Assembly (NCBI GenBank): GCA_030625885.1
Contig: DAOUPZ010000013.1
Location: forward strand, 1-64,000
DNA: 64,000 nt
Reading direction: 5' to 3'
From: Clostridia bacterium
GTDB taxonomy: Bacteria; Bacillota; DAOUPZ01
In this document: positions 35,379 to 49,576 of the stretch, piece after piece
How positions within the stretch are numbered: the first letter of the stretch is position 1
Layout of the letters: each line of letters opens with the position of its first letter
Made by a program: the position numbers and the translations under genes
The notes under the pieces: generated by a model
Databases searched by the model: none
Seen by the model: only the letters and a program-made list of their open reading frames with translations
What the model was told of the DNA's origin: nothing

Positions 35379-36053
35379 ATGCTTGGCAGGGGCTTAGAAA
35401 AACGGTTTATAGGGGAAAATATTTCTGCGATTGTTACAGATTATATCAAAGAAAGAATTATGACTGGTAAGTATGCTGAAGGAGACCATATTCCCCAAAC
35501 TGTAATTGCGAGAGAACTGGAAATAAGCAGAGGTCCTGTCAGGGAAGGGATCAAGGAACTTCAAAATCAAGGCGTCATTGATTTTGTCCCGAGAACAGGT
35601 AATTTTGTAGCTTGTTTTACAACTGAAGATAAAAAAGAGATTTTTGATATCAGGCTTATGATCGAGGGGGCAATGCTTGAGCAATTGATAAAAGAGAGTA
35701 AGCTTGGGGAAGAAGATTTTACTCACCTTACAAAAATTGTGGAAGAAATGGTGCAAATAAGCGAGTGTGAATGGGATATGGTGGAAAAGGCAGCCCAGAT
35801 GAGCAAGAAGGATATTGAATTCCATAGATATATTTGGAAAAAATCTGGTGGTAAAAGAAAGATAGAAATTTTAGAAAACCTTCATTTTCAGCTTCAAATG
35901 GCGATGATATACGACACAAAGTTTGGTGGAAATCTCCCAATAACGGCTAAAGAACACTATGATATCATACGCTGCTTAAAAACGGGAGATATTAAGAATT
36001 GTAAATCCGTATTAAAAGAACACATCACTTTATACAGAAAAGGTGTTTTTTAA
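35379..36053 (+). CDS. GntR-family transcriptional regulator, FCD type (copy 1)
   Basis: 224 residues, GAGGTG before the ATG. N-terminal winged helix-turn-helix (~15-80: IVTDYIKERIMTGKYAEGDHI, VIARELEISRGPVREGIKEL, GVIDFVPRTGNFV). The C-terminal FadR-type all-helical ligand domain (FCD, ~90-220) has IRLMIEGAMLEQLIKE and the histidines DIEFHRYIW and EHYDIIRCL, likely metal/ligand residues. FCD regulators typically sense small organic acids or amino acids and bind GTCGAC-like or TNGTNNNACNA palindromes. The palindromes upstream of this gene suggest autoregulation. Confidence 0.92.
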   Translation: MLGRGLEKRFIGENISAIVTDYIKERIMTGKYAEGDHIPQTVIARELEISRGPVREGIKELQNQGVIDFVPRTGNFVACFTTEDKKEIFDIRLMIEGAMLEQLIKESKLGEEDFTHLTKIVEEMVQISECEWDMVEKAAQMSKKDIEFHRYIWKKSGGKRKIEILENLHFQLQMAMIYDTKFGGNLPITAKEHYDIIRCLKTGDIKNCKSVLKEHITLYRKGVF

Positions 36054-36372: not shown

Positions 36373-37047
36373 ATGGTAGATGGGATGATGAGAGACAAGT
36401 TAAATAAAGAAAACTATTCTGAGGTTGTTATTGCGTATGTCAAAGAAAAAATTATTACTGGCAAATATGCTGAAGGCGCTCATATTTTGGAAACCGAGCT
36501 TGCCAGGGAACTTGGGATAAGCAGGGCCCCTGTCAGGGAAGGAATCAGGGAATTACAGAATGAAGGGATCATTGAATTAATTCCAAGAAAAGGTAATTAC
36601 GTCGTAACATTTACAGCCAAAGAGAAAAAGGAAATTTTGGATGTCAGGTTAACACTGGAAGAAGAGATGCTTGCCATTTTGATAAGAGAGAATAAGCTTG
36701 CTGAATCTGATTATATGCGTCTGATGGAAATAATAGATGAGATGGTCAAAATGGTTCAAGATGAAAGTGATATGAAGCAAAAAGCCATCATCATGAGCAA
36801 GAAAGACATAGAATTTCATAAATATCTTTGGAAAAAATCTGAAAGTAATATCAGGAGTGGCATTCTAGAAAAACTTCATTTCCAGCTTCAGATGGCAATG
36901 ATATTTGATAATGAGATGAGTGCGGATTTGGAGATGTCGGCGAAAGAACACTATGATATTATTGAGTGCATGAAAAGGAGAGATTTAGAAGACTGTAAAA
37001 AAGCATTAAGAAAACATGTGATTTTATGTCGTCGTTCAAAGGCCTAA
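36373..37047 (+). CDS. GntR-family transcriptional regulator, FCD type (copy 2)
   Basis: 224 residues, same length as copy 1 and collinear with it without obvious gaps. Winged HTH (VIAYVKEKIITGKYAEGAHI, LARELGISRAPVREGIREL, GIIELIPRKGNYV); FCD domain with VRLTLEEEMLAILIRE, DIEFHKYLW and EHYDIIECM. It lies 32 bases upstream of the M20 amidohydrolase and probably shares its transcript. HTH recognition helices differ slightly between the copies (ISRGPVREGIKE versus ISRAPVREGIRE), so both may read the same operator while sensing different ligands. Confidence 0.92.
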   Translation: MVDGMMRDKLNKENYSEVVIAYVKEKIITGKYAEGAHILETELARELGISRAPVREGIRELQNEGIIELIPRKGNYVVTFTAKEKKEILDVRLTLEEEMLAILIRENKLAESDYMRLMEIIDEMVKMVQDESDMKQKAIIMSKKDIEFHKYLWKKSESNIRSGILEKLHFQLQMAMIFDNEMSADLEMSAKEHYDIIECMKRRDLEDCKKALRKHVILCRRSKA

Positions 37048-40298: not shown

Positions 40299-41528
40299 AT
40301 GAAAATTGAAAAACTAACTGATATTGATGGATTATTGCGAAAACACGAGGATTATCGTTCAAGATGTCTTAACCTGATTGCTTCGGAAAACTATGCGAGT
40401 GATAAGGTCAGAAGCTATCTTAGCGGTGACTTTAGCAACCGGTATGGTTGTTATGTTGGAATGGACCTGGATGATAGAGAATATACGGGTAATAAATATA
40501 TCAATGAATTTGAAAAAGCAACGCAGGAACTTGTCAAAGAGGTATTTGGCGGCAAGTATGCCGATCTTAGACCCATCGGCGGTCATATGGCAGGGATGTC
40601 AGTTGTATTGGCACTGCTAGAACCGGGTGACTTGGTGATTGAAGTGCATCTTAAAGATTGGGGTCATGGCCTGGTCGGTCCCATGTGTGAACTGAGACAA
40701 TTTGATGAAACCATCAATGTAGAATACATGAAGTTTGATGAAAACGGGGCTGTTGATACGAAAGCACTGCAAAAAATGGCGGCTGAATTAAAGCCCAAAT
40801 TAATTGTCTTCGGTGGTTCCGGAACACTTTTCCCTGAACCTATTAAAGAACTGAAGGAAATTGCGGACCGGGAAAATATTTTATTGGCGTATGATGCATC
40901 CCATGTAACCGGGTTGATTGCATCCGGTGTATTCCCCAATCCCCTCGAAGAAGGGGTAGATGTGATGTTTGGCAGTACCCATAAATCATTCCCCGGTCCA
41001 CAAGGCGGATTTGTGGTATCCGACAACAAGGAATTGATGGAAAAGATCGGGAATGCGCTTTCTCCATCATTGGTTACCAGCCATCATTTGAACCGCCTGC
41101 CAGCATTTGCTGCATCCCTTTTGGAGATTAAATCGTTTGGTAAAGCATATGGTGAGCAGGTTGTCAGAAACTCAATGGCGCTTGCAAAAGCTATGGCTAA
41201 GGAAGGATTTAAGGTCAAAGGCGCCGCAAGAGGTTATACTGAATCACACTTGATTTTGGTTAATGTCGGCGGGTTTGTTGATGAAGCGCCGGGAAAATTA
41301 TTGGAAAAAGCCGGCATTTTATGCTCGGATGATTTCTCCGGTAGTGCACCCGAAGTTAGAATCGGCACGCCTGAATCAACCCGCAGAGGCATGAAGGAAG
41401 AAGATATGCAGGCAATCGCTCAATTCTTCAAGCGCGTTCTGATTGATAAGGAAGATCCGGAATCCGTATTAAAAGATGTCGAAACATTTGCTTTAAAATT
41501 CCCCGATTATGAATACGCATTTAAGTAA
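40299..41528 (+). CDS. Serine hydroxymethyltransferase-like PLP enzyme (paralogue)
   Basis: 409 residues, AGGAGGG before the ATG, 11 bases after the AOR gene. Fold type I PLP enzyme of the SHMT group: LNLIASENYASDKVRSYLSG, ADLRPIGGHMAGM, YDASHVTGLIASGVFPNPL, and the lysine for PLP at Lys229 in GSTHKSFPGPQGG. It is diverged from housekeeping GlyA: there is no normal YAEGYPGKRYY segment (here FSNRYGCYVGMDLDDREYTG), and it sits in a catabolic island. SHMT-like paralogues act on glycine, alpha-methylserine or beta-hydroxy amino acids, with or without folate. A glycine- or serine-yielding step would feed the Grd-type reductase, but this is inference. Confidence 0.88.
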   Translation: MKIEKLTDIDGLLRKHEDYRSRCLNLIASENYASDKVRSYLSGDFSNRYGCYVGMDLDDREYTGNKYINEFEKATQELVKEVFGGKYADLRPIGGHMAGMSVVLALLEPGDLVIEVHLKDWGHGLVGPMCELRQFDETINVEYMKFDENGAVDTKALQKMAAELKPKLIVFGGSGTLFPEPIKELKEIADRENILLAYDASHVTGLIASGVFPNPLEEGVDVMFGSTHKSFPGPQGGFVVSDNKELMEKIGNALSPSLVTSHHLNRLPAFAASLLEIKSFGKAYGEQVVRNSMALAKAMAKEGFKVKGAARGYTESHLILVNVGGFVDEAPGKLLEKAGILCSDDFSGSAPEVRIGTPESTRRGMKEEDMQAIAQFFKRVLIDKEDPESVLKDVETFALKFPDYEYAFK

Positions 41529-41734
41529 AAATTAAAAGGAATTGAAATAAGTTTTGCTTATATGAAAGCATATATGTTTTCTATATAATAACTAGACAAT
41601 ATTTATGTTATCAATTTTTGCAATACTACTTTTGTTGCACAAGTGGGGGGTGATTTCAAAAGTATCAGCCATAATAAATTAGCTTATTGAGGTCATTGCA
41701 GCATAAAAACCAAAAGAGAAAGTGAGGAGTTAAA

Positions 41735-42904
41735 ATGTTAGCATTTGAAAAATCCGAGTATCTGGAAAGAGTTAAAAAAGTGAAGGAAAGAATGGTAGAA
41801 CAAGGGATAGATGTTATATTGGCTTCTGATCCCGCGAATATTTGTTATTTAACTGGGTTTGAGGGATGGTCATTTTATGTTCATCAGACAGTAATCGTCG
41901 CATTAGATGAAGAACAGCCGACGATTATCATTAGAGGACAAGATTCTTTTGGCGCTGAACTCACAACCTGGTTAGATAAAGAAAATATCATTCCTTATCC
42001 TGACTTCTATGTAAATAATTCAGTTCAACATACCATGGATTTTGTGTCTGATATTTTAATCAAGAAAGGCCTTGGCAACAAGACAATCGGTGTAGAAAAG
42101 GAAGGGTTCTATTTCTCAATGCTTTGCGGTGAAAGAATAGAAAAAGGACTTCCCGATGCTAAGATTGTCGACTCAGATTATCTTGTGAACTGGGTTAAAT
42201 TGATAAAATCTGATAACGAGATAGCATGTATCAGAAAAGCAGCAACAATATCTGAAAAAGTTATGCGAACGGTTATTGATAAAATCGCAGTAGGGGTAAG
42301 ACAGTGTGATGTTGCAGCGGCTGCTTATCAAGCTCAGGTCAGTGGTACAGACGAGTATGGCGGAGAATTTTCTGCAATGTTCCCATTTATGTCTGCTGGG
42401 CAGCGGTCAAGTGCCTGCCACCTTCCCTGGACGGATCAACCGTATAAAAAAGGAGAATCACTCATATTTGAATTCTCCGGTGTGCATAAGCGATACCACT
42501 CTCCTTTAGCGAGAACCATTTCCCTTGGCGAACCTTCTCAAAAGCTTAATGACTCTGCAAATGTCGTTATCGAAGGCTTGGAAGCCGCTCTAGCTGCTGT
42601 AAAACCGGGTGCAGCTTGTGAGGATGTAGAAAAAGCATGGAATCAAGTCATTACCAAATATGGTATTATCAAAGATTCGCGAATTGGTTATTCCATTGGT
42701 TTGAATTTCCCACCAAACTGGGGTGAAAATTCCTGTAATCTTAGACCTGGGGACAAGACAGTTCTTCAGCCTAATATGACATTTCATATGATACCGGGTG
42801 TCTGGATGGACGACTTTGGCATTCACTTTAGTGAAACTTTCAGAGTCACTGAAAATGGCTGTGAAACAATGGCTAATTTCCCACGTGAGTTGTTTATCAA
42901 ATAA
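41735..42904 (+). CDS. M24-fold hydrolase of the ectoine hydrolase (DoeA)/creatinase type
   Basis: 389 residues, AGTGAGGAG before the ATG. Two-domain pita-bread enzyme: N-domain (YLERVKKVKERMVEQGIDVI, CYLTGFEGWSFYVHQTVIV), catalytic domain (EYGGEFSAMFPFMSAG, CHLPWTDQPY, KRYHSPLARTISLG, GYSIGLNFPPNWGE, LRPGDKTVLQPNMTFHMIPG, HFSETFRVTENG). Those strings follow DoeA, which opens the ectoine ring to N-acetyl-diaminobutyrate, more closely than creatinase or prolidase. The prolidase metal site is broken: the first Asp is replaced in LIFEFSG and the second by Pro in YHSPLART. His229 occupies the place of creatinase's catalytic His. So a metal-independent C-N hydrolase is expected. Substrate inferred, not proven: ectoine, creatine or a related cyclic/amidino compound. 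Confidence 0.85.
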   Translation: MLAFEKSEYLERVKKVKERMVEQGIDVILASDPANICYLTGFEGWSFYVHQTVIVALDEEQPTIIIRGQDSFGAELTTWLDKENIIPYPDFYVNNSVQHTMDFVSDILIKKGLGNKTIGVEKEGFYFSMLCGERIEKGLPDAKIVDSDYLVNWVKLIKSDNEIACIRKAATISEKVMRTVIDKIAVGVRQCDVAAAAYQAQVSGTDEYGGEFSAMFPFMSAGQRSSACHLPWTDQPYKKGESLIFEFSGVHKRYHSPLARTISLGEPSQKLNDSANVVIEGLEAALAAVKPGAACEDVEKAWNQVITKYGIIKDSRIGYSIGLNFPPNWGENSCNLRPGDKTVLQPNMTFHMIPGVWMDDFGIHFSETFRVTENGCETMANFPRELFIK

Positions 42905-42926
42905 CTGATACGAAAAGTTAAATAGG

Positions 42927-42952
42927 GCAATAACTGATGTTGTTATTGCTTT
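42927..42952 (+). terminator. Weak hairpin after the M24 hydrolase gene
   Basis: GCAATAAC / GTTATTGC, 7-base loop, followed by TTT. It lies 23 bases past the stop codon and 52 bases before the symporter start. It could be a partial terminator allowing read-through. Confidence 0.45.
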
Positions 42953-43003
42953 CCTGTGAAACAAGCCATAATAAAAAAATAATACATTATAGGAGGCGTA
43001 TCT

Positions 43004-44467
43004 ATGAATACAACTATTTTAGCAATTTTAATTGTTTATTGTGTTGGAATGATGGCGGTTGGTATATATTTTAGTAAAAAAGATTTAGAACAATCTGATT
43101 TCCTGCTTGGTGGGAAAAAGATTCCAGGATGGGCTTTAGCGTTTTCTGAAAGATCGACCTGTGAGTCTGTATGGCTTTTGATGGGCGCTACCGGCTTTGT
43201 ATATTCAACAGGTCTTTCTAGTATTTGGATATTTGTTGGTTCTTTCTTAGGGGTTGGCGGTGCATGGGTGTTCTTCTCCAAGCGGTTTATGCAGGAAACA
43301 AATAAATATAACGTTTTGACCCTTTCTGACTATCTTGCTGTAAGGTTTGGGGATAATGGTAAGGCGATAAGATGGCTTGCCAGTATTACAATCGTATGTT
43401 TCTTTATGTTCTATCTAGCCGCTCAATTTGCTGGCGCGGGCAAAACATTATTAACAACATTTGGGTTGAACCAATATACGGGTATGGTTTTGTCTGCAGT
43501 AATTGTTATTATATATGCTACTATGGGTGGATTCTTATCTGTTGTGTGGACGGATGTTATTCAAAGTTTGTTAATGGTTTTAACATTGATAGGACTACCA
43601 ATCGTTGCATTTTTCAAAATTAATGCGCAAGGTTTATCGGTAACTCATGCGCTTGCTACTGCCGGTGCAGGTATGAATTCTTGGACAGGCGGGTTATCTG
43701 GTTTTGCCGTGGTTACCTTGCTGGTGGCGAACTTCTCCTGGTTCTTTAGCTTTTTAGGCGGCCAGCCTCAATTAAGTGCTCGGTTTATGGCAATGAAGGA
43801 TGAAAAAGAAGTAACGCAAGGAAGAAATATTGGGTTAATATGGACAGTATTTGCTTATTCAGGTGTATTCCTAATTGGTCTTACGGCGATTGCATTATAC
43901 GGCCCGAATGCTTTTGCAGATGCGGAAACACTGTTACCATTTATGATCCAGGATTTATTACCACCATGGCTTGCGGGACTTTTGCTTTCCGGTATTTTGG
44001 CAGCAATGATGTCAACTTCCGATTCAGTATTGCTAGTTATTACAGGTTCTATTAGTGAAGATATTATTAATAAAGCGATGGGAGTTAAATTAAATGCAAA
44101 ACAGCTGATGAAGGTATCTCGATTAACAGTAGTAGGGGCAGGTCTATTGGGGTTAATTATTGGTATGACATCAAAATCACTGATTTATTATGTTATTAAC
44201 TGGTTTTCAGCTGGAATTGGCTGTACATTCTCGGTTGCTGTTTGTCTCGCATTCTTCTGGAAGAAAACTTCTGGGAAAGGGATCGTGGCCACTTTAGCTT
44301 CAGGATTTATCATTACTGTTATTTGGATGAGTTCACCATTGGAGGCTGTATTAACTTCCCGTGTTGTTACGTTCTTCCTGGCTGGAATCATTGGAATGGT
44401 CGTTAGTGTGTTATTCCCCGATAAAGAACAAGAATTAAGTGTTAAAGAAACAGAGCCTGCTATTTAA
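43004..44467 (+). CDS. Sodium:solute symporter (SSS family)
   Basis: 487 residues, AGGAGGCGT before the ATG. About 13 membrane segments with SSS features: YFSKKDLEQSDFLLGGKKIPGWA near the N-terminus, ATMGGFLSVVWTDVIQS (the conserved GGxxxVxxTDxxQ region), and LLSGILAAMMSTSDSVLL, holding the Na+-site serines/threonine. Family substrates include proline, pantothenate, sialic acid, choline-like osmolytes and sugars. Its place between the DoeA-like hydrolase and the GrdE/B pair makes it the probable importer of the island's substrate, driven by a Na+ gradient. Confidence 0.92.
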   Translation: MNTTILAILIVYCVGMMAVGIYFSKKDLEQSDFLLGGKKIPGWALAFSERSTCESVWLLMGATGFVYSTGLSSIWIFVGSFLGVGGAWVFFSKRFMQETNKYNVLTLSDYLAVRFGDNGKAIRWLASITIVCFFMFYLAAQFAGAGKTLLTTFGLNQYTGMVLSAVIVIIYATMGGFLSVVWTDVIQSLLMVLTLIGLPIVAFFKINAQGLSVTHALATAGAGMNSWTGGLSGFAVVTLLVANFSWFFSFLGGQPQLSARFMAMKDEKEVTQGRNIGLIWTVFAYSGVFLIGLTAIALYGPNAFADAETLLPFMIQDLLPPWLAGLLLSGILAAMMSTSDSVLLVITGSISEDIINKAMGVKLNAKQLMKVSRLTVVGAGLLGLIIGMTSKSLIYYVINWFSAGIGCTFSVAVCLAFFWKKTSGKGIVATLASGFIITVIWMSSPLEAVLTSRVVTFFLAGIIGMVVSVLFPDKEQELSVKETEPAI

Positions 44468-44508
44468 TTGATGATGTTCTATTAAATTTAAAATTAATGG
44501 TTGGTCAA

Positions 44509-44555
44509 TGATACATGGGGACATTCCTGGGAATGAGGAATGTCCCCATGTATCA
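44509..44555. repeat. Perfect 20-bp hairpin (REP-like) between symporter and grdE
   Basis: TGATACATGGGGACATTCCT, 7-base loop, exact complement. It contains the GGGGACATTCC core of the REP-A family but has its own flanks. No T tract, so a role in mRNA stability or as a REP target is more likely than termination. 44556-44693 is AT-rich leader DNA before grdE. Confidence 0.7.
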
Positions 44556-44693
44556 AACCTAAACAATTGTTAGTTAATATTTTGAAGAGCAAAAATTAAC
44601 AGGTTGTTAATTATCAATAATAGAAAATGCCATTAAAAGTATTAATAGTTAATAACAGCATTCAAGCTGTTTAAATATAAGGAGGTGGAGCTT

Positions 44694-45983
44694 GTGCGTT
44701 TAGAACTTGGAAAAATTAAAATTACCGATGTTCAATTTGGTGAATCAACCAAGGTAGAAAACGGCACTCTGTTTGTTAACAAACAAGAATTAATTGACAT
44801 GGCTCTGCAAGACGAACGCCTGAAAAGTGTGGCTATCGAACTTGCACGGCCTGGGGAATCCATTAGAATTACCCCTGTTAAGGATGTGATTGAACCTCGA
44901 GTTAAAGTAGAAGGCTCTGGTGTGATGTTCCCCGGTATGATTGGGAATAAGGTTAAAACAGTGGGTTCAGGGCGTACGCATGCATTGGTTGGGGCTACAG
45001 TAATTACCTGTGGTAAAATCGTCGGTTTCCAGGAAGGTGTTATTGACATGTCTGGTCCGATAGCCAAGTATTGTCCGTTCTCTGAAACCTATAACGTTTG
45101 TGTGGTCGTTACCCCTCAAGAAGGTCTGGGAACACATGCTTATGAAGCAGCTGCGAGAGAAGCAGGTTTAAAAATTGCGACAGCTGTTGGGGAAGCAGGG
45201 AGAAATGTTGAGCCTGATGAAGTGGTTGTTTATGATACCAAACCGCTTTTAGAACAGGTTAACGAATATCCCGGTTTACCGAAGATTGGCTACATTCATA
45301 TGCTTCAATCCCAAGGTTTACTTCATGACACGTATTACTATGGTGTAGATGCCAAGCAAATTGTACCAACTTTCATGTATCCAACCGAGATTATGGATGG
45401 CGCGATTACAAGTGGTAACTGTGTGGCACCTTGTGATAAAGTAACCACATTCCATCATTTAAACAATCCGGTTATTGAAGACCTTTATAAGAGACATGGT
45501 AAGGATCTTAACTTTATTGGTGTTATTCTAACCAACGAAAATGTATTCCTGGCAGACAAAGAAAGATCTTCCGATATGGTCGGAAAATTTGTGGAATACC
45601 TCGGTTTAGATGGTGTCCTTATCACGGAAGAGGGATATGGTAATCCGGATACCGATTTAATGATGAACTGTAAAAAAGCGACGGATGCAGGGGCTAACGT
45701 TGTCCTGATTACGGACGAGTTTCCGGGCAGAGATGGCAAATCCCAATCCTTAGCTGATGCTAAAACAGAAGCAGATGCACTTGTATCATGTGGAAATGGT
45801 AATATCATTCTGAATTTCCCACCCATGGATAAAGTAATCGGGATGCTTGACTATATTGAAAGCCAAATTGGCGGATACGAAGGCAGTTTAAAACCGGATG
45901 GCAGCATCGAAGGGGAACTTCAACTTGTTATCGCAAGTACGATCGCCAACGGTTATAACAAGCTAACTGCCAGAACTTACTAG
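44694..45983 (+). CDS. Glycine/sarcosine/betaine reductase component B, proprotein subunit (GrdE type)
   Basis: 429 residues from GTG 44694, 8 bases after GGAGG; an in-frame GTG at 44685 lies in the ribosome-binding site. GrdE/GrdG/GrdI family: MRLELGKIKITDVQFG, RTHALVGATVITCGKIVGFQEG, EGLGTHAYEAAAREAGLKIAT. The processing site is visible as Asn242-Cys243 in ITSGNCVAPCDKV; family knowledge is that cleavage before this Cys gives alpha and beta chains and a pyruvoyl/carbonyl group that forms a Schiff base with the substrate amine. It lies 16 bases upstream of the selenoprotein gene. Which amine is reduced cannot be told, so no symbol is assigned. GrdA, GrdC and GrdD are not in the window. Confidence 0.92.
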   Translation: MRLELGKIKITDVQFGESTKVENGTLFVNKQELIDMALQDERLKSVAIELARPGESIRITPVKDVIEPRVKVEGSGVMFPGMIGNKVKTVGSGRTHALVGATVITCGKIVGFQEGVIDMSGPIAKYCPFSETYNVCVVVTPQEGLGTHAYEAAAREAGLKIATAVGEAGRNVEPDEVVVYDTKPLLEQVNEYPGLPKIGYIHMLQSQGLLHDTYYYGVDAKQIVPTFMYPTEIMDGAITSGNCVAPCDKVTTFHHLNNPVIEDLYKRHGKDLNFIGVILTNENVFLADKERSSDMVGKFVEYLGLDGVLITEEGYGNPDTDLMMNCKKATDAGANVVLITDEFPGRDGKSQSLADAKTEADALVSCGNGNIILNFPPMDKVIGMLDYIESQIGGYEGSLKPDGSIEGELQLVIASTIANGYNKLTARTY

Positions 45984-45999
45984 GAAAGGGGGAGAGAAG

Positions 46000-47310
46000 A
46001 TGAGTAAATTAAAAGTTGTCCATTATATCAATAACTTTTTCGCCGGAATCGGTGGAGAAGAAAAAGCAGATATTGTTCCAGAAATCAGAGAAGGTGTTGT
46101 GGGTCCCGGTATGGCCTTAAATAAGGCTTTGGGAGATGAAGCCGAAGTGGTAGCGACTGCCATTTGTGGTGATTCCTATTTTGGGGAAAACCTGGAAGAA
46201 GCGCAAGCAACCCTTATTGAAATGATCAAACAATATGAACCGGATTTATTTGTAGCAGGACCTGCATTTAATGCCGGAAGATACGGTGTGGCTTGTGGAA
46301 TCATAGCTAAAGCGGTAGAGGCTGAATTAAACATCCCTGTTATTACAGGCATGTATATTGAAAATCCAGGGGCAGACATGTTTAAAAAAGACCTACATAT
46401 TATTGCAACAAATAACTCTGCTGCAGATATGAGAAATGCAATACCAAAGGTGGCAAAACTGGGTTTGAAATTAGCTAAAGGTGAAGAAGTAGGGCCGCCG
46501 GAAGAAGAAGGCTATCACGTCAGAGGCATCAGAGTCAATTACTTTCATGAACGAAGAGGGACAGAACGGGCGATTGATATGCTGCTGAAAAAGATCAATG
46601 GCGAAGAATTTGTGACTGAATATCCTATGCCTGTTTTTGATCGGGTAGAACCACAACCGGCAATTAAAGATATGTCCAAGGTGAAAGTTGCCATTGTGAC
46701 ATCAGGTGGGATTGTACCGCAAGGTAACCCGGATCGCATCGAGTCATCCAGTGCCACAAAATATGGGATCTATGATATTAGCGGAATGGATTCCTTAACG
46801 TCTGATAAGTTTATGACCATTCATGGTGGTTATGACCGTGCATTTGTTACGGAAAACCCTAACCTCGTCGTACCTTTAGATGTCATGCGTGAAATGGAAA
46901 AAGAAGGCGTTATCGGTGAATTATGTAACTACTTTGTGACAACCACAGGGACGGGTACGGCAGTAGGTAACGCTAAAGCATTTGGGGAAGCATTTTCGAA
47001 AAAATTAGTAGCTGACGGCGTAGAGGCTGTTATTTTAACATCTACCTGAGGTACCTGTACACGTTGCGGTGCAACGATGGTCAAAGAAGTTGAAAGAGCG
47101 GGTATTCCAGTTGTTCACGTATGTACAGTTACTCCCATTTCCCTGACGGTAGGTGCAAACCGAATCGTACCGGCAGTTGGTATTCCCTATCCATTAGGTG
47201 ATCCTAATTTAGACGTAGAAGGCGACAAGAAATTAAGAAGACAGTTAGTTGAAAAAGCGCTGAAAGCTTTGCAAACAGAAGTTGAAGAGCAGACGGTATT
47301 TGAAGATTAG
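46000..47310 (+). CDS. Glycine/sarcosine/betaine reductase component B, selenoprotein subunit (GrdB type, Sec350)
   Basis: 436 residues reading the in-frame TGA at 47047-47049 as selenocysteine 350 (ILTST-U-GTCTRCGATM). Without recoding the frame would stop at 349 residues, and the continuation GIPVVHVCTVTPISLTVGANRIVPAVGIPYPLG is plainly the conserved GrdB C-terminus. N-terminus VVHYINNFFAGIGGEEKAD and AGPAFNAGRYGVACG, TGMYIENPGADMF are standard. The region before Sec is unusual: NPNLVVPLDVMREMEKEG and NYFVTTTGTGTAVG where classical GrdB/F/H have a DRVLPVDVLR...YTTxGNGT-like string, so this may be a distinct reductase subtype. The Sec attacks the substrate-bound carbon and passes it on to GrdA. 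ATG with GGGGGAGAG upstream. Confidence 0.95.
47062..47076 (+). promoter_or_regulatory. SECIS-like hairpin downstream of the Sec codon
   Basis: Perfect 6-bp stem CGTTGC-GGT-GCAACG, 12 bases after the UGA (47047-47049). Position and the GG-starting apical loop suit a bacterial SECIS read by SelB. It overlaps the codons for the conserved TRCGAT segment. Confidence 0.7.
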
Positions 47311-47331
47311 AGATTATTTTAAAGTGGGAAA

Positions 47332-47365
47332 GTAAGGAAAGGTAATATGTATTACTTTTCCTTAC
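47332..47365 (+). terminator. Hairpin after the GrdB-type gene
   Basis: Stem GTAAGGAAAGGTAAT / ATTACTTTTCCTTAC (15 bp, one G-U), loop ATGT, 21 bases past the stop codon. No T tract follows, so it may be a stability hairpin rather than a terminator. Confidence 0.6.
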
Positions 47366-47430
47366 GCAGATATAACAGGAATTGGACAATACATTAGTAT
47401 TTATTAATGAGCTAGAAAGCACAAATTTTA

Positions 47431-47604
47431 GCAAGAAATAAAAGTAAAAAAGCGAACATTCAAAGTTTTTTGTATGTGGTTCTCAGTGAAGGCAGAAAAA
47501 AACCGTTAAAAATTTTGAGTCAAAATTTAGGTTTTTTTTCTGACAAGCTGTTAGAACCACTCAAAAAACTTTGTCAGAGAGCGTTTTATTTTTATTTCTT
47601 TAGC
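47431..47604. repeat. 174-bp imperfect palindrome (MITE-like)
   Basis: Nearly continuous inverted repeat. Outer AAGAAATAAAAGTAAAAAAGCG pairs with the 47581-47604 segment, CAAAGTTTTTTG (47461-47472) with CAAAAAACTTTG (47562-47573), GTGGTTCT with AGAACCAC, AGAAAAAAACC with GGTTTTTTTTCT, and AATTTTGA with TCAAAATT at the centre. No coding potential. It differs in sequence from the GCAGGTAG family elsewhere in the window. Confidence 0.75.
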
Positions 47605-47654
47605 ATTTAGCCGTTAGGCGTTTTTCTCAGTATAGCTTGAGATTTAAAATGGAA

Positions 47655-47850
47655 TGGTGCTTGGTACCATAGGTGGAGGTTAAAATAACCGTATCAATAG
47701 CGTAGGTAAATAATTCTTTCGTTTACTAACAGTGGTATAGAAATGATCATGAAGCTCGCCAATGCTTCCTTCTTTTTCTACATCTCTTAATACATCTACT
47801 GGTAATATACGATGAGAACCTTCATTATAATACACCAGGTCATAAGCACC
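47655..47850 (-). pseudogene. Relic of a canonical GrdB-type gene, Sec codon changed to TAT
   Basis: Read on the minus strand from 47850, one frame gives GAYDLVYYNEGSHRILPVD then VLRDVEKEGSIGELHDHFYTT, the classical GrdB/F/H region before the selenocysteine. After a frameshift with a deletion, a second frame gives YAIDTVILTSTYGTKHHS, which aligns with VEAVILTST-U-GTCTRC of the intact gene. The Sec position is TAT at 47671-47669. Homology ends a few codons later, and at the 5' side near 47850 (a TAA is in frame just before). No start, no C-terminus. It is closer to canonical GrdB than the intact neighbour is, so it is not a simple copy of it. Confidence 0.82.
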
Positions 47851-47881
47851 CTTTTATCCAATAGAGTTTATCCCGAACTAC

Positions 47882-48029
47882 CGTTTCTAAGACTCCCTCT
47901 TCTGCAAGAGGGAGCCTAAGAAACGCTACGTTCCCGATTCGGTTTTCTAAACGCTTACGTGGGAGAGAAAGAAACTCCCACGTAAGCGTTAGAAAACTAT
48001 TTATGGGATGGTATATACCATCCCATAAA
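47882..48029. repeat. Three consecutive long hairpins
   Basis: Hairpin 1, 47882-47925: CGTTTCT ... AGAAACG enclosing CTCCCTCTT-CTGC-AAGAGGGAG. Hairpin 2, 47942-47997: left arm GTTTTCTAAACGCTTACGTG plus GGAG, 9-base loop, right arm complementary with one bulged A. Hairpin 3, 48000-48029: perfect 30-base palindrome around GGTATATACC. They fill the space between the two grdB relics. None has a terminator T tract; hairpin 2 might be an element end. Confidence 0.75.
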
Positions 48030-48065
48030 AATAATTTCGTTCCTCTTTCTCATGGGTGAGGAAGC

Positions 48066-48149
48066 AAGAAATTAAGAAGACAATTGGTTGAAAAAGCGCT
48101 GAAAGCTTTGCAAACCGAAGTTGATGAACAAACGGTATTTGAAGACTAG
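48066..48149 (+). pseudogene. 3' tail of a second GrdB-type gene
   Basis: 84 bases encoding KKLRRQLVEKALKALQTEVDEQTVFED-stop, in two readable halves of one frame. It aligns with the last 84 bases of the intact gene (from 47227) with about seven substitutions, several of them synonymous. Everything upstream is missing. This shows that a second plus-strand copy existed, or that the 3' end was duplicated when the intervening DNA was inserted. The 907-base stretch between the intact gene and the NSS gene thus has relics and palindromes but no intact gene. Confidence 0.85.
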
Positions 48150-48217
48150 ATGAAAATTATAAAAAGTCGAAATTATTATATTATATTATAAAAATATAAA
48201 GAAAGAGGTGTCTCTTG

Positions 48218-49576
48218 ATGGAAAAAGAAAGAGCGAACTGGGGCAGTCGAATAGGGTTTATTTTAGCAGCAGCAGGGTTTTCCGTTGGTTTAGGTAACAT
48301 CTGGAGATTCCCATATATGACTGGTATGAATGGTGGGGGCGCATTCCTTATAGTTTATTTGGCAATCTCTTTAATCATCGGTGTCCCACTATTTCTTTCA
48401 GAAGTTGGCTTAGGGCGTAAAACGCAACTTAATCCCATTGCAGGGATGCGGAAACTGACGAAAAAAGGCAGTCCATGGGTGGCGGCTGGTTGGTTAGGTA
48501 CCCTTGCTTCGGTATTTGTTATGTCCTATTATTTGCAGGTGATTGGCTGGATGGTTGCCTACTTTTTTAAGGTAATATCCGGTACATTTAAAGGGATGGA
48601 GGCAGAACAGCTTGATGCTGCGTATGCTTCATTTACTGCAAATACACCTGTGGTCATGGCGTTTACACTTATTGTTGCTATTATTTTGGGTGTGATCGTA
48701 ACCAGAGGACTAAAAGAAGGTGTTGAAAAAGCTTGTAAGATCATGATGCCAACTCTATTTATTTTCTTGCTCCTCTTAGGTATTAGATCTTTGACGTTGC
48801 CAAATGCCATTGAAGGAGTTAAATGGTATCTAACACCTGATTTTTCTAAAATAAATGCTGGGGTTCTTGTTGCATCACTGGGTCAGGTATTCTTCTCAAT
48901 TGGAATTGGGGCCGCATGTGCCTTCACTTATGGGAGTTATTTGCATCCCACACAATCGGATCTTCCGAAAGATTTAGCAATTGTTATTTTCTTAGACATG
49001 TTGGTTGCCGTTATTGCAGGCTTTGTTATCTTTCCCGCTTTGTTTTCATTTGGAATGGAACCTGATGCGGGTGCAGGATTGCTATTTGTTACGATGACCA
49101 GAATGTTTGGGGAGCTCCCCGTGGGAAATTTACTAGGCGGAATGTTCTTCTTCTTGATTGTAATGGCAGGTTTAACATCTGGTATGGGATATTTAGAAAC
49201 CGTATCTAATACCATGTCAGAATTATATAACATTGACCGCAAAAAATCTGTTTGGGGTACGCTGGCAGTGATGTTCTTATTAGGTATTCCTGCTATTCTT
49301 TCTCAGGGTTCATGGTCTCATGTTTTAATTCTTGGTATGAATTTCTTTGATTTTTACGATTATCTATCTGGCAATGTTTTGATGACAGCTTCCGGTTTGA
49401 TGATAATTTTGTACACCGCTTTTGTGTGGAAGTTTGAGAACTACAAGGAACAAAATAATATCGGAGCTACCACTATAAAAATTGGTAACTGGCAGAAGAT
49501 TTTAGTGACAATTATTGGTCCTATCGCTGTAGCCTACATTACGATATCGGCGATCATTAAACCATTTTTACATTAG
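48218..49576 (+). CDS. Neurotransmitter:sodium symporter family (NSS) transporter
   Basis: 452 residues; ATG 48218 follows AAAGAGGTG (a TTG three bases before is less well placed). LeuT-like: WGSRIGFILAAAGFSVGLGNIWRFPY is the hallmark TM1 with its unwound Na+/substrate site, then NGGGAFLIVYL, about eleven or twelve membrane segments, and SLGQVFFSIGIGAACAFTYGSY (TM6 region). Prokaryotic NSS members carry amino acids (glycine, alanine, leucine, tryptophan, methionine). Position after the grd genes suggests import of glycine or a small amino acid for the reductase, by Na+ symport. Sixty-eight bases from the grdB relic. Confidence 0.93.
   Translation: MEKERANWGSRIGFILAAAGFSVGLGNIWRFPYMTGMNGGGAFLIVYLAISLIIGVPLFLSEVGLGRKTQLNPIAGMRKLTKKGSPWVAAGWLGTLASVFVMSYYLQVIGWMVAYFFKVISGTFKGMEAEQLDAAYASFTANTPVVMAFTLIVAIILGVIVTRGLKEGVEKACKIMMPTLFIFLLLLGIRSLTLPNAIEGVKWYLTPDFSKINAGVLVASLGQVFFSIGIGAACAFTYGSYLHPTQSDLPKDLAIVIFLDMLVAVIAGFVIFPALFSFGMEPDAGAGLLFVTMTRMFGELPVGNLLGGMFFFLIVMAGLTSGMGYLETVSNTMSELYNIDRKKSVWGTLAVMFLLGIPAILSQGSWSHVLILGMNFFDFYDYLSGNVLMTASGLMIILYTAFVWKFENYKEQNNIGATTIKIGNWQKILVTIIGPIAVAYITISAIIKPFLH

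Follow-up and report, generated by a model that had tools for sequence, protein, structure and literature searches.

According to a 2006 survey (Zhang et al. 2006, PMC1794560), homologues of GrdB that contain Cys are very few or absent in organisms with Sec, and the survey table gives no Sec/Cys conversions for this protein (PMC1794560). Here, we describe a locus at which the Sec codon of a grdB sequence has given way to a Tyr codon. It is found in the window, namely the whole 64,000-nucleotide stretch analysed (contig DAOUPZ010000013.1 of the Clostridia bacterium assembly GCA_030625885.1), on the minus strand, between a live grdF gene and a transporter gene, where the 86-base 3' terminus of another reductase gene is also located. 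With a length of 191 nt, it represents 14-15% of a grdB gene. On sequence grounds, we interpret it, with a probability of about 0.93, as a dead, predicted non-functional fragment of a glycine-type grdB, kin of the intact grdB found on contig C12 in the same genome, that was broken by rearrangement and then decayed.

Reductase genes of the genome and of the window

Searching the genome with the Pfam GRDB profile revealed seven places, one of which is the minus-strand fragment (C9:47725-47853, E 9.1e-11). The genome comprises sarcosine-type genes in three copies as well as genes of the glycine and betaine types, and two dead pieces occur in one and the same spacer. NCBIfam models assigned the C12 gene to glycine reductase GrdB (TIGR01917, 755.6 bits, cut-off 602) and the C20 gene to betaine reductase GrdH. 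Two further pairs of grdG and grdF, both preceded by a grdX-like gene, were observed on contigs C15 and C16 (positions 1-873), with 86-88% DNA identity to the live grdF, and a PrdB-like gene (by eye of the D-proline reductase type) that contains an in-frame TGA as well was seen at C12:205873-206472.

Within the window, the region 40299-47310 may form a sarcosine/creatine island, with genes encoding an SHMT-like protein, an ectoine hydrolase/creatinase-like M24 protein and a sodium/solute symporter, followed by GrdG and GrdF (Table 1). A tandem pair of similar regulator genes (35379-36053 and 36373-37047; GntR-like by eye) was also noted ahead of an amidohydrolase-like gene.

Table 1. Coordinates in the window of the grdB fragment, the grdF 3' remnant and the surrounding genes and repeats.
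Feature	Position	Strand	Evidence
GrdG, partner subunit of live GrdF	44685..45983	+	NF040793, 832.8 bits (cut-off 780)
GrdF, sarcosine reductase selenoprotein with in-frame TGA, live	46000..47310	+	NF040794, 849.9 bits (cut-off 800)
SECIS_4 of live grdF	47050..47087	+	RF01990, 64.1 bits
Dispersed palindromic repeat A, 168 bp, whole-length hairpin	47433..47600	.	Copies on C25 (83%) and, in part, on C26 (77%); smaller pieces on C18 and C22
Glycine-type grdB fragment (gene nt 826-1056)	47663..47853	-	Pfam GRDB, DNA alignment, shuffle test, tblastn
TAT in the position of the Sec codon (TGA)	47669..47671	-	Alignment ACC-TGA-GGTACC / ACC-TAT-GGTACC
Dispersed palindromic repeat B, two hairpins	47872..48004 (up to 48034)	.	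Copies on C10 (94%) and C15 (88%)
Second grdF copy, 3' terminus of about 28 codons and stop, 86 bases	48065..48150	+	92% identity to 47226-47311
Sodium-dependent transporter (NSS-type), next gene downstream of the grdF 3' remnant	48215..49576	+	NF037979, 133 bits (cut-off 50)

An inverted fragment of a glycine-type grdB

A sequence-only reading of this DNA had recognised GrdB sequence around a Sec site in two minus-strand frames at 47655-47850. Profile, translated and shuffled comparisons all bear out this identification, and the coordinates proved essentially correct, the homology running from 47853 down to 47663. The fragment matches positions 273-315 of PF07355 with 42.4 bits (cut-off 22 bits). 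In tblastn analyses of the window using C12 GrdB, three stretches were detected: the live gene (46000-47307), the minus-strand fragment, and a short plus-strand stretch at 48066-48146. Both frames of the fragment were matched, with 70% identity over 40 aa in the first (47850-47731), 55% identity over 20 aa in the second (47722-47663), and a joint E-value of 1.5e-14. Block 1, GAYDLVYYNEGSHRILPVDVLRDVEKEGSIGELHDHFYTT, corresponds to codons 276-315, and block 2, KELFTYAIDTVILTST-Y-GT, to codons 334-352 in a different frame. At the DNA level, the alignment with C12 grdB displays 78% identity over 128 nt and a score of 159.5, against a maximum of 42 for shuffled sequences (n=300), and block 2 alone reaches 50, against a maximum of 37.5 (n=500). 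The fragment is unique within the genome.

Based on NCBIfam typing, DNA scores and phylogeny, the parent of the fragment is assigned to glycine-type GrdB, a type different from that of the live, sarcosine-type GrdF, in keeping with the earlier description of the fragment as inverted with respect to the live gene and more canonical than it. At the protein level, the fragment shares 64% identity with the C12 product, 48% with the live GrdF and 44% with GrdH, and C12 grdB is the best DNA match both in the genome and among all relatives compared (159.5, the second being 116.5). In a tree of 70 sequences restricted to this short region, with 61 comparable residues in the fragment, the latter falls outside a 29-sequence clade (support 100/99) that contains the live sarcosine gene, and among mostly glycine-type sequences, the few columns leaving its nearest kin unplaced. 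Its end branch measures 0.57, eleven-fold the median of 0.051, and is exceeded in only one row, of odd composition; such a length is as expected for decaying DNA. Over both blocks, the differences from C12 grdB number 16, 9 and 21 at codon positions 1, 2 and 3, respectively, a distribution compatible with decay or with earlier divergence under selection.

Lesions and loss of the Sec codon

Between the two blocks, 3 nt stand for 46 nt of the gene, and this net loss of 43 nt shifts the frame, giving a DNA basis to the frameshift perceived in the sequence-only reading. The conversion of TGA to TAT that it had described is recovered in the alignment with C12 grdB, in which TAT occupies the place of the Sec codon, two base changes being needed. 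The grdB homology ends just after GGTACC, 6 matched bases beyond this codon, where the bases on the fragment side (AAGCACCATTCC) are unlike those of grdB (TGTACACGTTGC), and AAG is found at the position of the UxxC cysteine. Since the homology ends at this point, the fragment is devoid of a SECIS and of the UxxC cysteine. The in-frame TGA (Sec) of the UxxC motif is also absent. At the opposite edge, homology starts abruptly at GGTGCTTATGACC. Similarity to grdB in the 62-nt linker past the Sec-side edge was no better than in shuffles, and none was visible in the 18-nt linker at the other edge. As an alternative to substitution, a breakpoint immediately ahead of the Sec codon was also considered and is unlikely, as GGTACC after the codon still matches.

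Rfam analyses over 46900-48300 identified no SECIS after the Sec position of the fragment, the only one found being SECIS_4 of the live gene; all three SECIS elements of the whole genome belong to live genes. The longest open stretch at the fragment has 57 codons and no ATG, and an ORF of about 436 codons with a partner grdE was not found there, the sequence being spread over two frames with no adjoining grdE on the minus strand. The frameshifting net 43-nt deletion, the abrupt edges and the long end branch are those of a gene remnant. Truncation at both ends, the internal deletion and the two-base codon change are independent lesions, which argues against a sequencing slip.

Searching 399 genomes from the phylum provided the context for the altered codon. 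Among the matches listed, those that extend over the Sec codon show TGA in frame, with no TAT or Cys form at this position, and each of the 59 relatives compared has one internal stop. Because homologues covering the site have TGA, the ancestor of the fragment very probably had TGA as well, and TAT would be the product of two base changes. A Cys-form ancestor, from which TAT would be reached in one step (TGT to TAT), is unsupported, since the homologues covering the site have TGA. As the fragment is truncated, frameshifted and without SECIS, we regard the change from Sec to TAT as decay, devoid of functional meaning, and not as an enzyme substitution.

A composite spacer with a second remnant

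The spacer separating the live grdF from the grdF 3' remnant (47312-48064) contains repeat A, the grdB fragment and repeat B, the two low-copy repeats lying on either side of the fragment. A perfect 30-bp palindrome (48000-48029) was observed only here within the genome. Rfam searches over the spacer returned the live SECIS together with weak chance matches only. Comparison with 60 genomes from the phylum revealed no counterpart of the spacer, the matches in two of them being short and confined to the 3' end of grdF; the source genome is the sole member of its class in this comparison.

The grdF 3' remnant, which adjoins the transporter gene on its upstream side, was absent from the sequence-only reading. 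It differs from the live grdF at seven positions, all seven of them third codon positions, so that this tail was seemingly under selection in a working grdF until recently and would be a second, younger remnant. For a reductase gene lost at this place, in this case a grdF, this tail is better evidence than the inverted fragment.

With several near-identical grdF copies in the genome, the spacer and the grdF 3' remnant might have been misjoined during assembly. Both C15 and C16 begin within grdF, broken at the same point and sharing 141 identical bases, and the assembly lacks their 3' parts. However, the inverted fragment occurs nowhere else in the genome and does not resemble grdF, and therefore cannot come from collapsed grdF copies, while the repeated tail has diverged by 8% and, at 86 bp, falls short of the 141-base overlap found where C15 and C16 break. 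An assembly artefact is thus very improbable.

Origin and significance of the fragment

The arrangement is most likely accounted for by the following scenario. A grdB copy of glycine type would have been broken by a rearrangement, gene nt 826-1056 ending up inverted in the spacer between grdF and the transporter gene, beside two palindromic repeats, and the same spacer would also have gathered the repeats as well as a grdF tail. Decay would have followed, with the net 43-nt deletion and its frameshift, base changes, and the loss of the Sec codon as one among many neutral changes. We infer the neutrality of these changes and the order of the events, as well as placement by rearrangement instead of inversion of a whole gene in place.

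The sequence-only reading had proposed that the island once held a second, different reductase gene that was inverted and eroded. The relic is inverted, as proposed, and of a different, glycine type, but inversion of the whole gene in place does not follow from a remainder of 191 nt with abrupt edges and no other part of grdB or grdE nearby. A second, complete glycine reductase gene, alone or accompanied by grdE, that was inverted in place and eroded within the island would be compatible with a dead fragment; the parent was a different, glycine-type gene, several grd pairs are kept in the genome, and the adjoining grdF 3' remnant shows that grd genes were lost here. Yet such a gene left no glycine-type N-terminal, C-terminal or grdE remnant nearby, and the fragment, with its abrupt homology edges, sits between dispersed repeats. 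We therefore hold whole-gene inversion to be possible but doubtful, a captured or rearranged scrap accounting for the data equally well.

A function for the fragment is unlikely from its sequence features. Transcription reading through from grdF would copy its plus strand into an RNA antisense to the glycine grdB mRNA; the stretch from grdF to the fragment has no predicted terminator on the plus strand, and the predicted pairing of this RNA with the C12 grdB mRNA reaches -192 kcal/mol, whereas shuffled targets average -66. Had the fragment been kept as an antisense element against glycine grdB around the Sec codon, carried on read-through of the sarcosine reductase operon, sarcosine use would damp glycine use. 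However, comparable pairing is expected of any inverted gene piece, the longest perfect match to C12 grdB is 11 nt, and promoter-like sites occur at chance level, so that we give both the antisense RNA and its retention for this role almost no credence. The decayed grdB fragment is real, correctly read and ordinary evolutionary debris that calls for no new mechanism, and the locus documents the turnover of Stickland-type reductase genes.

Comparison with known systems

The closest intact counterpart, C12 grdB (TIGR01917 / PF07355), has the motifs LPVDVLRD and LTST near the Sec site in common with the fragment. In contrast to this gene, the fragment is limited to nt 826-1056, contains a frameshift, carries TAT for TGA, and is without SECIS and UxxC cysteine. 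The live GrdF (NF040794) belongs to the same superfamily, and the remnant at 48065-48150 is of GrdF type, whereas the inverted fragment, only 48% identical to GrdF in protein, lies outside the sarcosine clade. As in the Sec to Cys replacements known from selenoproteins (PMC1794560), a sense codon is found in place of the in-frame TGA; unlike them, the codon is one for Tyr, in a sequence that is predicted to be dead, is truncated and has no SECIS remnant. At this locus, the Sec codon would have been lost only within the death of the gene, in agreement with the few or no Cys forms of GrdB that have been published.
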